From Negativicutes bacterium (GTDB lineage Bacteria > Bacillota_C > Negativicutes > Acidaminococcales > Acidaminococcaceae): a DNA stretch of 26,583 nt. The translations under genes and the position numbers were made by a program. Below are positions 5,767 through 25,786 of this stretch, piece after piece; the stretch's first letter is position 1; every line of letters starts with the position of its first letter. The notes below the pieces were generated by a model. The model worked only from the letters and a program-made list of their open reading frames with translations. It did not search any database and had not been told where the DNA came from. The DNA lies in assembly GCA_009930275.1 (NCBI GenBank), contig RZYP01000020.1:1-26583 (forward strand). Reading direction: 5' to 3'.

Positions 5767-5804
5767 AAAAAACCGCCCGAGCAGCATACTGTTGCCCAGG
5801 CGGT
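5767..5804 (-). terminator. Riboswitch-controlled terminator upstream of pflB
   Basis: Minus strand: ACCGCC (5799-5804) pairs with GGGCGGT (5772-5778), with extra inner pairing GCAAC/GCTGC-type, followed by six T residues (5767-5772). The 5' arm is the same CCGCCTGGGCA segment that the ZTP aptamer needs, so ligand binding and termination should be mutually exclusive. Confidence 0.85.
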
Positions 5805-5866
5805 CGGCTTATTATACAATATGGTCCACGTGGTTATTCCACTGATCCGCCAGTCCCATATCGTGC
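5790..5866 (-). promoter_or_regulatory. ZTP riboswitch (pfl motif) upstream of pflB
   Basis: The minus-strand leader has the conserved blocks of the ZMP/ZTP (pfl) riboswitch in order: GGGACTGGCGG (ACTGGCGG at 5847-5854), a short hairpin region with the palindrome CCACGTGG, then GCCGACCGCCTGGGCA (CCGCCTGGGCA at 5793-5803). The first and last blocks pair through GGCGG/CCGCC. The family is named after its association with pfl genes and senses AICAR triphosphate as a sign of 10-formyl-THF shortage. A terminator overlaps its 3' block, and a consensus promoter lies just upstream, giving a complete ON-switch arrangement. I identified it by eye from remembered consensus, not by a covariance search. 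Confidence 0.85.
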
Positions 5867-5887
5867 TAAATATTTTAACTTGGTGTA

Positions 5888-21186: not shown

Positions 21187-21290
21187 CTCTTATCAAGAGC
21201 GGTCGAGGGACAGGCCCGATGACACCCGGCAACCAAGCGTTTACGTGATTGGTGCTAAATCCTGCAAGATAGAATCTTGGGAGATGAGAG
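21187..21290 (+). promoter_or_regulatory. SAM-I riboswitch (S-box) upstream of metQ
   Basis: The S-box core is easy to read: CTTATCAAGAGCGGTCGAGG, then GGACAGGCCCGATGA, CCCGGCAACC, GGTGCTAAATCCTGC and the closing GATGAGAG. Helix P1 is CTCTTATC (21187-21194) with GATGAGAG (21283-21290), 8 bp with one G-T pair. Downstream, GAGGAAAG (21288-21295) can instead pair with CTTTCCTC (21310-21317), which would block the terminator at 21308-21332. This is the standard OFF-switch: SAM stabilises P1, frees the terminator arm and stops transcription. Confidence 0.96.
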
Positions 21291-21307
21291 GAAAGCGGTT
21301 TTATACT

Positions 21308-21332
21308 CTCTTTCCTCGGAAAGAGTTTTTTT
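21308..21332 (+). terminator. SAM-controlled terminator before metQ
   Basis: CTCTTTCC (21308-21315) / GGAAAGAG (21318-21325), then seven T residues. The 5' arm is shared with the antiterminator of the S-box. Confidence 0.9.
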
Positions 21333-21375: not shown

Positions 21376-22197
21376 ATGAAAAAATTATTGGCAGTTGCAC
21401 TTGCTCTTGTGAGCTTGCTCGCAGTCGTTACCGGTTGCGGCGGCGACAAAAAGGAAGCAGAAAAGGGTGCTGCAAAAAAAGTTGTTTTGAAGGTTGGGGC
21501 AACACCTGTTCCTCATGCTGAACTGTTGAATCTGGTAAAACCTATTTTGGCTAAAGACGGTATTGACCTGCAAATTATAGAATTCAGTGATTATGTTAAA
21601 CCAAACTTATCGTTGAATGATAAAGAGCTAGATGCTAACTTCTTCCAACACACTCCTTACCTGGAAAAATTTGCTTCTGAACGAAAACTGGCCCTTACAA
21701 CTTTGACAAAGGTTCACATTGAGCCAATGGGTATTTACTCCAGGACTATAAAGAGTCTGGATGCTTTGCCGACAGGCGCAAAAATTGCCATTCCGAATGA
21801 CCCCACCAACGGTGGCCGCGCTTTAGCACTTTTACAAAGCGCTAAACTTATAAAAATGAAAGATGGTGTAGGTATTAATGGTACACCGAGTGATATAGTA
21901 GATAACCCGAAAGGTTTCTCGGTTATAGAAGTTGAAGCAGCCTTGCTGCCACGTTCTCTTGATGATGTAGCTATCTCCGTTATCAACTCTAACTTTGCCA
22001 TGGAAGCAAAATTGAATCCTGTCAAAGATTCTCTTTTCACCGAACCCAAAGAATCGCCTTATGCCAACATAGTTGCTATTCGTAAAGGCGATGAGAATCG
22101 TCCGGAACTTCAAAAGTTAGCTAAAGCTTTGACCAGTCCGGAAGTTAAGAAATTTATCGAAGACAAATACAAAGGAGCTGTTGTTCCCGCGTTTTAA
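21376..22197 (+). CDS. metQ: Methionine ABC transporter substrate-binding lipoprotein
   Basis: Captures methionine at the cell surface for a MetNI permease. The first 20 residues are a lipoprotein signal peptide (MKKLLAVALALVSLLAV) ending in the lipobox VVTGC, lipidated at C21. The mature part is a NlpA/MetQ-type binding protein: VGATPVPHAELLNLVKPIL, DANFFQHTPYLEKF and AIPNDPTNGGRALALLQ are family blocks. Length is 273 aa. The ATG at 21376 has GGGAGAG upstream; an ATG at 21361 would add five residues before the signal peptide and overlap the ribosome site. The SAM-I riboswitch upstream confirms a methionine role. metN and metI are not next to it, so the permease must be encoded elsewhere. Confidence 0.95.
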   Translation: MKKLLAVALALVSLLAVVTGCGGDKKEAEKGAAKKVVLKVGATPVPHAELLNLVKPILAKDGIDLQIIEFSDYVKPNLSLNDKELDANFFQHTPYLEKFASERKLALTTLTKVHIEPMGIYSRTIKSLDALPTGAKIAIPNDPTNGGRALALLQSAKLIKMKDGVGINGTPSDIVDNPKGFSVIEVEAALLPRSLDDVAISVINSNFAMEAKLNPVKDSLFTEPKESPYANIVAIRKGDENRPELQKLAKALTSPEVKKFIEDKYKGAVVPAF

Positions 22198-22220
22198 GTT
22201 TTCACAGCAGTAAAAAAAGT

Positions 22221-22260
22221 CCCCCTCAGTGTTTCGCTTAGTGCGAGAAAAATGAGGGGG
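22221..22260 (+). terminator. Terminator after metQ
   Basis: CCCCCTCA (22221-22228) / TGAGGGGG (22253-22260) with inner TCGC/GCGA pairing, followed by ATTGTTT. The stem is strong and the U-tract is short and interrupted. Confidence 0.75.
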
Positions 22261-22289
22261 ATTGTTTATGTTATAAAAAGTGTAAAATA

Positions 22290-22318
22290 TTGACAAAATT
22301 ATGTGTCTATGATACGCT
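22290..22318 (+). promoter_or_regulatory. Likely promoter for the structured RNA upstream of speD
   Basis: TTGACA (22290-22295), 17-bp spacer, TACGCT (22313-22318), preceded by TGA, which can act as an extended -10. The -10 is poor, the -35 perfect. Expected start near 22325, just before the RNA's closing stem. Confidence 0.55.
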
Positions 22319-22330
22319 TTTACTAGTGAC

Positions 22331-22569
22331 AAGGATTAGATTATTAGATTCAAAGTGACCTTCCCAATAATGGGAACTACGGCCATACGGACAGCCGGGT
22401 CAATTGCCGATTGGCAACTAAGGTTGCCTTATTGATTGAGTTAAAAGCTCAAATTTTATAAGTTGGTTACTTCATAACCGTGTGTGTTAAACTGCACAAT
22501 ACTTGTGAAACGGTCAATAAGAGTAGTGAAAGTAAATTTTTGCTCAATCGACTCTAATATCTAAAATTG
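22331..22569 (+). ncRNA. Structured non-coding RNA or leader upstream of speD, family not identified
   Basis: This roughly 240-base gap has no good ORF but folds extensively. A closing stem joins 22336-22348 to 22553-22564 (12 bp, one bulge). Inside, TGACC/GGTCA (22356-22360 with 22398-22402) encloses two hairpins: TTCCC/GGGAA (22361-22365, 22372-22376) and CGGC/GCCG (22380-22383, 22394-22397). Then come TTGCC/GGCAA (22404-22417), TAAGG/CCTTA (22419-22431) and GGTTA/TAACC (22465-22479). The long-range pair GATTGAG/CTCAATC (22434-22440 with 22543-22549) competes with a local TTGAG/CTCAA hairpin. It lacks the T-box, S-box, SRP and RNase P signatures. A named class such as the raiA motif is possible, but I could not confirm it. 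It may be independent or part of the speD leader. Confidence 0.7.
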
Positions 22570-22631
22570 TGAATAAATAAAATGAATGCAAATTCAATAA
22601 TAAATAATACAATTAATTAGAAATGACTAAG

Positions 22632-22675
22632 CTCAGGTAGTGTTGTGGTTAAATACAATATACCTGAGTATTTTT
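22632..22675 (+). terminator. Terminator just upstream of speD
   Basis: Stem CTCAGGTA (22632-22639) / TACCTGAG (22661-22668), extended inside by TGTTGT/ACAATA, then TATTTTT. It ends about 10 bases before the speD ribosome site. It may end the structured RNA or attenuate speD; no clear promoter lies between it and speD. Confidence 0.85.
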
Positions 22676-22697
22676 GTGTTTTTTTAAGGAGGTAAAA

Positions 22698-23468
22698 ATG
22701 GAGAACAAATTAAAACTTTACGGTTTCAACAACTTAACGAAGGCGCTTAGCTTTAATATTTACGACGTCTGCTACGCCAAAACAGAAAGAGAGCAAAGGG
22801 ACTATATTGCCTATATCGACGAGCAGTATAATTCTGAGAGGCTGACCAAGATTTTGTTGCAGGTTACCGACATGATTGGCGCAACAGTACTGAACGTTGC
22901 TAAGCAGGACTATGACCCGCAGGGGGCCAGCGTTACCGTTCTGATTGCCGAGGAGTCGATGATTCCGTCAATGGATGGCGATACAATTGTTGCACATCTG
23001 GATAAAAGCCATGTTACTGTTCATACTTATCCTGAGTTTCATCCGGACAACTCCATTGCTACCTTTCGCGTTGATATAGATGTGGCTACTTGCGGCGAAA
23101 TTACTCCGCTCAGCACTCTCGACTTTTTAATTGGCAGTTTTGATTCTGATATCATAACCATGGACTATCGCGTGCGTGGTTTTACTCGTGACATAGATGG
23201 TAAAAAATTATATATCGACCATAATATAACTTCAATTCAGGATTACATTGACGTCAAGACCTTGGAAAAATATGATGCTATCGATATCAATATGTATCAG
23301 GCTAATATTTTTCATACGAAGATGTTAATCAAAGAAGTTGATTTGCAAAATTATCTGTTCAAAACCGACGTCTATGAATTGCCGCCGAAAACAAGGCTGA
23401 AAATAACTAATAGTTTAAGACGTGAAATGATCGAAATTTTCAGCGGTATGAACGTATACAAGGAGTGA
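22698..23468 (+). CDS. speD: S-adenosylmethionine decarboxylase proenzyme
   Basis: Makes decarboxylated SAM, the aminopropyl donor for spermidine. It is the longer, E. coli-like type (256 aa), not the roughly 125-aa Bacillus type. The self-cleavage site is [14 protein letters not shown]104 would become the pyruvoyl group, with H109 and E113 nearby; C132 in [12 protein letters not shown] is the other conserved processing residue. The ATG at 22698 has AAGGAGGT at 22686-22693. It is the first gene of the polyamine operon and follows a terminator and a structured RNA, so it may be subject to attenuation. Confidence 0.95.
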
Positions 23469-23476
23469 AATAAAAA

Positions 23477-24934
23477 TTGACTAAGCTTTCGCAGGAGAAG
23501 GCTCCGATTTTAGAAGCTTTGGAAGAATTTAAAAGAATGCGCCTGGTGCCTTTTGATGTTCCGGGTCATAAAAGGGGCAGGGGCAACAAGGAGTTGACCG
23601 AGTTTTTGGGCGAAAAATGCCTGACTGTTGATGTCAACTCCATGAAACAACTTGATAATCTTTGCCATCCTGTAGGAGCAATCCGGGAAGCGGAAGAATT
23701 GGCGGCGGAAGCTTTTGGCGCTGAGCATGCCTTTTTTATTGTCAATGGGACAACGGCCGCGGTCCAGGCAATGGTTCTAACGGCCTGCAAACGTGGAGAA
23801 AAAATAATTTTACCGCGCAATGTTCACCGCAGTGTCATCAATGCGATGATTTTATGCGGCGCTGTGCCTGTTTACATCAATCCCCAGATGAATGAAGCTC
23901 TCGGTATTTCTCTAGGCATGGAGGTTTCTGATGTAAAAAAAGCAATAGAAGAAAACCCGGATGCCAAGGCAGTGCTTGTTAATAACCCAACTTATTACGG
24001 TATTTGTTCCAATCTCAAGGCGATAACGGAGCTGGCACACGCAAATAACATGCTTGTTCTGGCAGACGAAGCACATGGTACACATTTTTATTTCGGGGAA
24101 AACATGCCAATCTCCGGCATGGCGGCAGGTGCCGATATGGCATCTGTGAGCATGCACAAGTCAGGAGGATCTCTTACACAGAGTTCATTCTTGCTTTGCG
24201 GGAAGAATATCAATTCCCAATATGTAAGACAAATAATTAATTTGACGCAGACTACCAGCGGTTCCTATCTTTTGCTTTCCAGCCTTGATATTTCCAGGAG
24301 AAATCTGAGCCTGCGAGGTAAAGAGATTTTCAAGTCAGTCGTCGATATGGTAGAGTATGCAAGGCAGGAAATAAATCAAATAGGAGATTATTACGCTTAT
24401 TCTCGTGAATTAATAAACGGCGACAGCGTTTTTGATTTTGATGTTACCAAATTGTCCGTTAATACTTTCGAAACCGGACTGGCTGGCATCGAAGTATATG
24501 ATTTGCTGCGTGATGAGTATGATATCCAGATAGAATTTGGTGATTTGGGGAATTTTTTGGCGTATGTGTCTGTTGGTGATAATTATAAAAACATTGAACG
24601 CTTGATTGGTGCATTATCGGAAATAAGGCGTTTATACAAAAAAGACAAGGCTGGTATGCTGCGGCACGAGTATATACCGCCAATGGTTAAATTAGCACCG
24701 CAGCAAGGTTTTTACGGAGAGAAAGAACAGGTTGTTTTGGAGGAGAGCGCAGGCAGAATTTGCAGTGAGTTTGTAATGAGCTATCCGCCGGGAATTCCAA
24801 TTCTGGCTCCAGGTGAAGAAATTACCGCGGAAATTATTGAATATATCAAGTACGCTAAAGAAAAGGGCTGCTTCTTAACCGGCCCGGAAGATATGGAAGT
24901 TAGAAAGATTAATGTTTTGAAAGGAGGGTGTTAA
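23477..24934 (+). CDS. speA: Orn/Lys/Arg decarboxylase family enzyme, probably arginine decarboxylase
   Basis: PLP-dependent decarboxylase of the short fold-type I group (Bacillus SpeA/YaaO-like), 485 aa. FDVPGHKRGRG opens the domain, DEAHG (197-201) contacts PLP, and K228 in SMHKSGGSLTQSS forms the Schiff base. The C-terminal domain has SYPPGIPILAPGE, typical of the family. Arginine is the likely substrate because speB (agmatinase) is two genes downstream: arginine to agmatine to putrescine. Lysine or ornithine cannot be excluded from sequence alone. It starts at a TTG (23477), 8 bases after speD, with AGGAG about 11 bases upstream. Confidence 0.88.
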   Translation: MTKLSQEKAPILEALEEFKRMRLVPFDVPGHKRGRGNKELTEFLGEKCLTVDVNSMKQLDNLCHPVGAIREAEELAAEAFGAEHAFFIVNGTTAAVQAMVLTACKRGEKIILPRNVHRSVINAMILCGAVPVYINPQMNEALGISLGMEVSDVKKAIEENPDAKAVLVNNPTYYGICSNLKAITELAHANNMLVLADEAHGTHFYFGENMPISGMAAGADMASVSMHKSGGSLTQSSFLLCGKNINSQYVRQIINLTQTTSGSYLLLSSLDISRRNLSLRGKEIFKSVVDMVEYARQEINQIGDYYAYSRELINGDSVFDFDVTKLSVNTFETGLAGIEVYDLLRDEYDIQIEFGDLGNFLAYVSVGDNYKNIERLIGALSEIRRLYKKDKAGMLRHEYIPPMVKLAPQQGFYGEKEQVVLEESAGRICSEFVMSYPPGIPILAPGEEITAEIIEYIKYAKEKGCFLTGPEDMEVRKINVLKGGC

Positions 24935-25786
24935 GTGGATCTTTGGTACAGTGAAGCACACACAAAATCCGTTAAATTTGCGATTCAGGTTGACAAACAA
25001 CTTTTCAGCGCACAAAGCGACTTTCAGAGAATAGATGTTTTCCAATCCGAAGAATTTGGCAAGTTTCTGACTCTTGATGGTTACATGATGCTGACTGAAA
25101 AAGATGAATTTATCTATCACGAGATGATAGTACATGTTCCCATGGCAGTACATCCGAACGCGAAGAAGGTTTTGGTTATTGGCGCCGGCGATGGCGGTGC
25201 AATTCGTGAACTGACCAGGTATAAAACAATTGAAAGAATTGATTTTGTCGAGATTGACGAGATGGTTGTCGATGTATGCAAAAAGTATCTTCCTCAGACA
25301 GCCTGTTCTTTTGATGATGAACGGGTTCATGCCTATTTTCAGGATGGCCTGAAGTTTATCAGGAAGCATGAGAATGAGTATGACCTGATAATAGTGGATT
25401 CGACTGATCCCTTTGGACCGGGCGAAGGTCTCTTTACCAAGGAATTTTACGGTAATTGCTATAAGGCTTTGCAAGAAGATGGCATCATGGTCAATCAGCA
25501 TGAAAGCCCGTTTTACGAAGAAGATGCTATCGCTATGAAGCGCGCTCATAAGAGAATTGTGGAATCTTTCCCCATCAGCCGTGTTTATCAAGCTCATATT
25601 CCGACCTATCCTTCCGGCCACTGGCTTTTTGGTTTTGCTTCCAAGAAGTATCACCCTGTCCGTGATCTACAGGCCGACAAGTGGAACGGTCTAGGACTAA
25701 AAACCCGCTATTATAATACAAATCTGCATAAAGGCTCATTCTGTCTGCCTAATTATGTACAGGAGATGCTGCACGATGTTGAATAA
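24935..25786 (+). CDS. speE: Spermidine synthase
   Basis: Transfers an aminopropyl group from decarboxylated SAM to putrescine. The Rossmann core has VIGAGDGGAIRE (from residue 81), E106 in FVEIDEMVV and the catalytic DSTDP (D155-D158). HIPTYPSGHWLFGFAS is the family's late block. Length 283 aa is normal. The GTG start directly follows the speA stop, with AAGGAGGG just upstream. The last 11 bases overlap the speB start. Confidence 0.97.
   Translation: MDLWYSEAHTKSVKFAIQVDKQLFSAQSDFQRIDVFQSEEFGKFLTLDGYMMLTEKDEFIYHEMIVHVPMAVHPNAKKVLVIGAGDGGAIRELTRYKTIERIDFVEIDEMVVDVCKKYLPQTACSFDDERVHAYFQDGLKFIRKHENEYDLIIVDSTDPFGPGEGLFTKEFYGNCYKALQEDGIMVNQHESPFYEEDAIAMKRAHKRIVESFPISRVYQAHIPTYPSGHWLFGFASKKYHPVRDLQADKWNGLGLKTRYYNTNLHKGSFCLPNYVQEMLHDVE

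Follow-up and report, generated by a model that had tools for sequence, protein, structure and literature searches.

A conserved 5' leader RNA of polyamine genes, modelled in part by Rfam RF02440, as a probable transcription attenuator and candidate polyamine riboswitch

The gap between metQ and speD in the window (the whole stretch of 26,583 nucleotides analysed here, contig RZYP01000020.1 of the Negativicutes assembly GCA_009930275.1) contains a likely promoter, a structured RNA, an intrinsic terminator and then the start of speD, and the speD-ldc-speE operon has this RNA as its 5' leader (Table 1). We regard it as fairly probable that the RNA attenuates transcription in cis, most likely as an OFF riboswitch for a polyamine of the spermidine type. 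Comparison of the homologous sequences brought out a conserved fold with covariation, a polyamine-gene context, a predicted terminator, and a complementarity of the terminator arm to the 3' strands of P8 and P6 that appears specific to each locus.

The TTGACA promoter that a previous reading of the letters alone (hereafter, the sequence-only reading) had placed before the RNA was found again. Its extended but weak -10 (TG-A-TACGCT; TGATACGCT), as read from the sequence, ends at 22318, and the promoter was absent from the listing of the consensus scan; the transcript would start near 22325. The match of the second gene of the operon to the LdcC subfamily (7.1e-32) was far under the curated NCBIfam cut-off. 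Two riboswitches in contexts ordinary for their classes were also observed in the window: a SAM-I riboswitch (RF00162; 84.4 bits) at 21187-21290 (+) before metQ, with a terminator-like hairpin at about 21305-21332 (by eye), and a ZMP/ZTP riboswitch (RF01750) at 5787-5867 (-), upstream of the genes for pyruvate formate-lyase and its activase. Another hairpin-forming stretch (22220-22261, by eye) trails metQ.

Table 1. Positions of the leader RNA, its helices and the neighbouring elements in the window
Feature	Position	Strand	Remark
Likely promoter	22290..22318	+	TTGACA at 22290-22295, 17-nt spacer, weak -10; inferred from reading of the sequence
P1, 5' strand (closing stem)	22337..22351	+	partner 22550-22563; best fold of the window
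P2/P2a domain	22356..22402	+	contains invariant GGCCATACGGACAGCC; RF02440 (with 22403-22410, the entire RF02440)
P3 hairpin	22413..22428	+	both-sided changes at all six pairs
P4	22430-22435:22514-22519	+	encloses P5-P8 (22430..22519); missing from the single-sequence best fold of the window
P5	22436-22442:22446-22452	+	inside P4
P6	22454-22463:22501-22510	+	inside P4
P7	22465-22468:22476-22479	+	inside P4
P8	about 22483-22487:22494-22498	+	alignment poor; in A2, 55.3% of cells pair
Putative antiterminator strand (P8-3' and P6-3')	22495..22508	+	complementary to terminator 5' arm 22633-22647
P9/P9a and 3' strand	22520..22555	+	in most relatives, 3' strand has the 5' leader as alternative partner (P1)
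Intrinsic terminator	22631..22686	+	hairpin 22631-22669, -19.0 kcal/mol, then T-rich tail
Ribosome binding site of speD	about 22686-22692	+	from sequence; directly after the terminator
speD, S-adenosylmethionine decarboxylase	22698..23468	+	TIGR03331, 411.3 bits (cut-off, 255.8)
Orn/Lys/Arg decarboxylase family gene (ldcC-like)	23477..24934	+	best NCBIfam match, LdcC subfamily
speE, spermidine synthase	24935..25786	+	TIGR00417, 335.3 bits (cut-off, 249.55)

The search against Rfam that the sequence-only reading had proposed gave a strong match: positions 22356-22410 matched RF02440 (SpF59_sRNA, ldcC RNA; type label, 'Gene; sRNA') with 65 bits (cut-off, 37.2) over model positions 1-54 of 54. 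The hallmark of RF02440, namely the UGACC/GGGUC helix, the apical hairpin and GGCCAUACGGACAGCC, was present in the alignment and supported by covariation. The model (length, 54 nt), which represents about one quarter of the RNA, shares P2 and the invariant core with the RNA of the window; the full RNA has in addition P1, P3-P9, a conserved 3' half and an expression platform. Because this 5' quarter is RF02440, the RNA is not wholly undescribed; the name 'ldcC RNA' implies that somebody had linked the RNA to ldcC. The suggested identities as raiA (RF03072) or a divergent 6S RNA (RF00013; accessions as given in that reading) were rejected, as were T-box and SAM-I, since none of them was among the five Rfam covariance-model matches at E<=5 in 22180-22720; at this threshold, RF00162 had no match in 22180-22720, and its sole match in the window was the one before metQ. 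Among 14 control genomes, RF02440 matched one (Lactococcus lactis). No description of the RNA was found in the open-licence literature, and one may exist in a subscription journal. A search of the main text of PMC11109978 and PMC6429828 for six polyamine terms found none of them.

The genome contigs were scanned for homologues with a 21-base core pattern with one base free, and at least 118 stretches were found; the pattern itself fixes 20 of the conserved positions. When the window was aligned with 111 of the 118 listed loci (those with 80 bases before and 330 bases from the core), the conserved RNA was roughly 220-230 nt (about 22337-22563); near-invariant blocks reach 22555, and the conservation is weaker from about 22339. 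The GGCCATACGGACAGCC block was invariant across the loci, being fixed by the search pattern in the listed named loci. Both ends of the RNA were recognised in 104 of 119 sequences (the 118 listed loci and the window). The regulatory element including the terminator runs to about 22686, and is longer than the extent of 22331..22569 previously given to it. One Paenibacillus match was found in plasmid records (80.5% identity by blast over window positions 22378-22558), where the RNA has no annotation; there were no matches to the core pattern in viral contigs and no match in phage records.

The first homology downstream of the RNA, judged against nine reference proteins, was to a polyamine gene in 113 of the 113 listed named loci with room for it; the other 5 of the 118 end too early. 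The next gene among these 113 was speD in 39, ldc in 36, carboxynorspermidine synthase in 22 and potA in 16, and the first polyamine gene was located 221-655 nt from the core. Thirty-five first ORFs had no Spe hit; according to NCBIfam, 17 of these were carboxynorspermidine synthase, 14 PotA and one PotC, and the remaining three had no match at 1e-60. Three gene sets were recognised (SpeD/Ldc/SpeE; carboxynorspermidine synthase and decarboxylase; PotABC), and the regulated genes share one pathway. Genome searches were performed with the full model R1 (198 positions; the window scores 192 bits and is itself one R1 row) and with R2. The latter is based on the sequence of the 3' core alone (40 of the 79 rows available) and was aimed at forms that lack the 5' domain. 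SpeD, Ldc or carboxynorspermidine synthase was downstream at 27 of 27 R1 loci and 34 of 34 R2 loci; together, a polyamine gene was next in 43 of 43 distinct genomes, four of which (G002, G004, G006 and G010) had served as search centres, the core being known to occur in them, while the rest may overlap the 118 listed named loci. At one locus (L129:25-1131), a second, distant Ldc-like protein with 31% identity to that of the window is encoded before the RNA, and another Ldc follows the RNA.

The common denominator to which these gene groups point is a polyamine, that is, spermidine or a close triamine. Polyamine or SAM sensing had been raised from the position of the RNA between metQ and speD; the link to polyamine genes (113 of 113 listed loci with room) fits the former, and the carboxynorspermidine synthase and potA loci tell against the latter. 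A riboswitch for SAM, decarboxylated SAM or methylthioadenosine would sense a substrate of SpeD or a by-product of SpeE, and a SAM-I riboswitch is present before the neighbouring metQ. However, neither the carboxyspermidine route nor uptake involves SAM, decarboxylated SAM or methylthioadenosine, and 22 of the 113 listed loci precede the synthase of this SAM-free route and 16 precede potA; moreover, the stretch has no SAM-family match at E<=5, and metQ is followed by a hairpin-forming stretch of its own. We give this alternative hardly any credence: the carboxyspermidine and transport contexts argue for spermidine or a related polyamine, not SAM.

The predicted folding energy of the leader (22323-22690) was -95.2 kcal/mol, and none of 100 shuffled sequences was as low (mean, -70.3; sd, 4.6; z = -5.4); this and the covariation among the homologues agree with the highly structured RNA claimed by the sequence-only reading. 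The covariation was evaluated with alignment A2, which consists of 87 of the 102 sequences of suitable length; 15, including close copies and sequences of unusual length, were dropped by hand. Ten helices with 56 pairs were considered, and 93.3% of the cells pair (shuffled, 88.1%). Both-sided changes were observed at 27 of the 56 pairs (shuffled, 14.8) and in 280 cells (shuffled, 87.3), so that the homologue check came out in favour of the stems, and the pairing fell to 33-48% when the partners were slid by 1-3 columns. With 35 sources picked to include divergent matches, in an alignment fitted to the structure, 47 of the 56 pairs had both-sided changes. Covariation in A2 was clear in P2a, P3, P5 and the first pair of P2 (UA, GC or CG), and less so in P9a. 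P4, P6 and P9 hardly vary in A2, and P4 and P6 have some both-sided changes in A3; the pairing support for these three helices comes mainly from the divergent set because the best-conserved positions hardly vary. A conserved, covarying fold in the 5' leaders of distant bacteria, which is a criterion for riboswitches, is indicated by these alignments.

In the best fold of the window, P1, P2a, P3 and P5-P8 are present, P9 is missing in addition to P4, and the 5' strand of P2 is paired with 22512-22516, not with 22398-22402. RNAalifold with A2 predicted 42 pairs without P6 and P7, placing the 3' strand of P6 in a small local hairpin. Both predictions speak against a single static structure and would fit strands with two partners. 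Coding, or attenuation by a leader peptide, was rejected because the spacings of the conserved blocks fall in all three frames. A pseudoknot of the P7 loop (ACUUU) with AAAGU of the P9 5' strand was considered and is not claimed, since its variants seemed, by eye in A2, not to covary. Large insertions between intact conserved blocks were seen by eye in the P5 and P7/P8 regions of three loci (L034, L094 and L044).

The closing stem, for which 12 bp had been claimed, has 11 pairs in the best fold of the window (22337-22341 with 22559-22563, and 22343-22348 with 22553-22558) and is supported across the loci. A first test, in which the 34 nt preceding GACC were paired with the 30 nt that follow the RNA, was weak (own, -9.3; cross, -8.3) because the partner in most relatives is the end of the RNA itself; the target region was then changed to the last 22 nt of the RNA and 8 nt more. 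With this region, the own pairing was -18.2 and the permuted pairing -14.4 (sd, 0.26; 101 of 104 sequences), and none of 5,000 permutations was as good, neither here nor among 16 loci less than 75% identical. P1 usually has the form of GAGUC...GCAnAUA with UAUUUGC...GACUC; that of the window lacks the usual GCAnAUA strand and is weaker by the same measure (-9.8 vs -18.2). P1 and P9/P9a would be mutually exclusive because both use one strand in most relatives, and the assignment of either to a state is a guess. The competing long-range pair that had been proposed before (22434-22440 with 22543-22549) is not conserved: among the 87 sequences, 7 of 7 pairs can form in one (the window), 6 in one, 5 in six, 4 in 67, and 3 or fewer in 12. 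The switching RNA for which this pair was adduced nevertheless has good support from the covariation, the expression platform and the polyamine gene at every listed locus with room for one; other exclusive pairings are conserved.

A strong terminator after the RNA, directly before the ribosome binding site of speD, had also been recognised correctly. Terminators of -12 kcal/mol or lower were predicted before the gene in 99 of 104 sequences (loci from the listed matches and the window), compared with 5 of 206 after dinucleotide shuffling of these stretches. The antiterminator duplex of the window (22495-22508 with 22633-22647) was predicted at -14.5 kcal/mol. A sliding profile over 96 sequences (three were dropped, having no recognisable P6 motif) peaked at P8-3'/P6-3' (-15.4, and -14.5 one 6-nt step on), with values from -4 to -12 elsewhere. 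On average, the terminator arm paired with its own RNA at -15.69 and with permuted ones at -13.12 (sd, 0.25), and 0 of 5,000 permutations were as good; the result was the same (0 of 5,000) among the 16 loci less than 75% identical. When the transcript ends at 22652, the two states of the window differ by 1.6 kcal/mol (-77.7 and -76.1). In the complete leader, the antiterminator state (-82.5) lies 12.7 kcal/mol above the terminator state (-95.2), and therefore switching would have to occur during transcription. Sequence and energies together suggest an expression platform with mutually exclusive structures, and the predicted pairing pattern fits a transcription-attenuating off-switch.

These data also bear on the type label of RF02440, according to which the RNA would be a trans-acting small RNA with an incidental leader position; a terminated leader would likewise appear as a short transcript. 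This is very unlikely in our opinion, since the terminator arm is a better match to the RNA of its own locus than to those of other loci, a polyamine gene comes next in every listed locus with room, and a single match per genome was found in each of 11 genomes.

For the attenuator, we infer a polyamine as the ligand, its direct binding, the OFF sign and a role of P1/P9. When the ligand is bound, the RNA would close as P1 with P2-P8 formed, the 3' strands of P6 and P8 would be held in this fold, the terminator would form, and the operon would not be transcribed. Without the ligand, P6 and P8 would open, 22495-22508 would capture the 5' arm of the terminator (22633-22647), and RNA polymerase would read into speD. 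The second exclusive pair, P1 vs the local P9/P9a hairpin, probably couples the ligand binding to this choice. The presence of both biosynthesis and uptake genes suggests an OFF switch, and direct polyamine binding is our best guess from the sequences.

The anatomy of attenuation would suit equally well a sensor acting in trans, such as an RNA-binding protein, which would report the polyamine state to an RNA without an aptamer of its own. Against this unlikely reading, matches over the whole length of the 198 model positions, with strong sequence conservation, extend from Bacillus and Paenibacillus as far as Synergistota and a Spirochaetes MAG, and conservation of this kind is more typical of a metabolite aptamer. 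Polyamines bind RNA generally (PMC10853860), and could stabilise a compact fold without any specific pocket; this is quite improbable, however, as the invariant GGCCATACGGACAGCC suggests specific contacts.

The distribution of the RNA was examined with the same models. R1 matched 18 of 299 sampled Bacillota genomes, the search centre included. SpeD was found in 68 genomes of the same draw, including 15 of the 18 with the RNA; 53 of these 68 had no R1 match in such scans, which use stricter filters, and the RNA is not a constant partner of the spe genes. R2 matched 25 of 398 Bacillota genomes, including all the 18 R1-positive ones and seven others new to that draw, and 11 of 100 genomes of one class in a further search. 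Matches were obtained in 7 of 61 genomes of the phylum to which the Synergistaceae MAG belongs; in that of the Spirochaetes MAG, 1 of 80 genomes was matched, which is the search centre itself, so that a misbinned contig is possible there. Two loci (L132:1501-1708 and L135:1501-1679) have, by eye, a promoter-like sequence inside the model match, and their RNA would therefore be about 110 nt. These shorter forms have no RF02440 match and lack P2-P5, and they keep the GCAAAUA strand of P1, the ACUUGUG strand, the 3' core and the GCAAGUG terminator arm (by eye) as well as the P9/P9a region. The RF02440 match was missing in 10 of 13 tested R1 loci, picked mostly among the lower-scoring ones. The 3' half, and not the Rfam part, would thus be the common denominator.

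The demonstrated bacterial spermidine riboswitch is a variant of SAM-I. PMC10853860 describes it as such a variant, calls it rare, and states that definitive evidence for a spermidine riboswitch class had been lacking until then. Its mode of action is like the one proposed here, as it is a leader of ldcC, speE and speB and a genetic OFF switch with a terminator and an antiterminator; however, it has the SAM-I fold, whereas the RNA of the window has another architecture and no SAM-family match at E<=5, and would thus differ from it structurally. Unlike that riboswitch, the present family also precedes carboxynorspermidine synthase and pot genes. The odc1 and potE motifs (PMC8632094) and the speF motif (PMC11477304) are likewise leader RNAs at polyamine-related genes, with ligands not known. 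odc1 and speF are described from alphaproteobacteria, unlike the RNA of the window; odc1 differs from it further in consisting of a single extended hairpin and having a pseudoknot where translation starts, and potE in being a weak riboswitch candidate with no obvious expression platform (PMC8632094).

We lean slightly towards regarding the RNA as a second natural class of polyamine-sensing riboswitches, a non-SAM-I class that is present in Rfam as a 54-nt 'sRNA' and that would be widespread in Bacillota and modular, with a dispensable 5' domain, and connected with two synthesis routes and uptake. The comparison suggests that the Rfam entry covers no more than a quarter of the RNA and that the most universal part lies outside this entry. 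Few RNA-binding metabolites are as abundant as the polyamines. If the above reading is true, the RNA would offer at once a large fold for structure determination and a class of ligands for testing, one RNA class would control two unrelated routes of spermidine synthesis as well as polyamine uptake, and it would show how many bacteria control the synthesis and uptake of spermidine.
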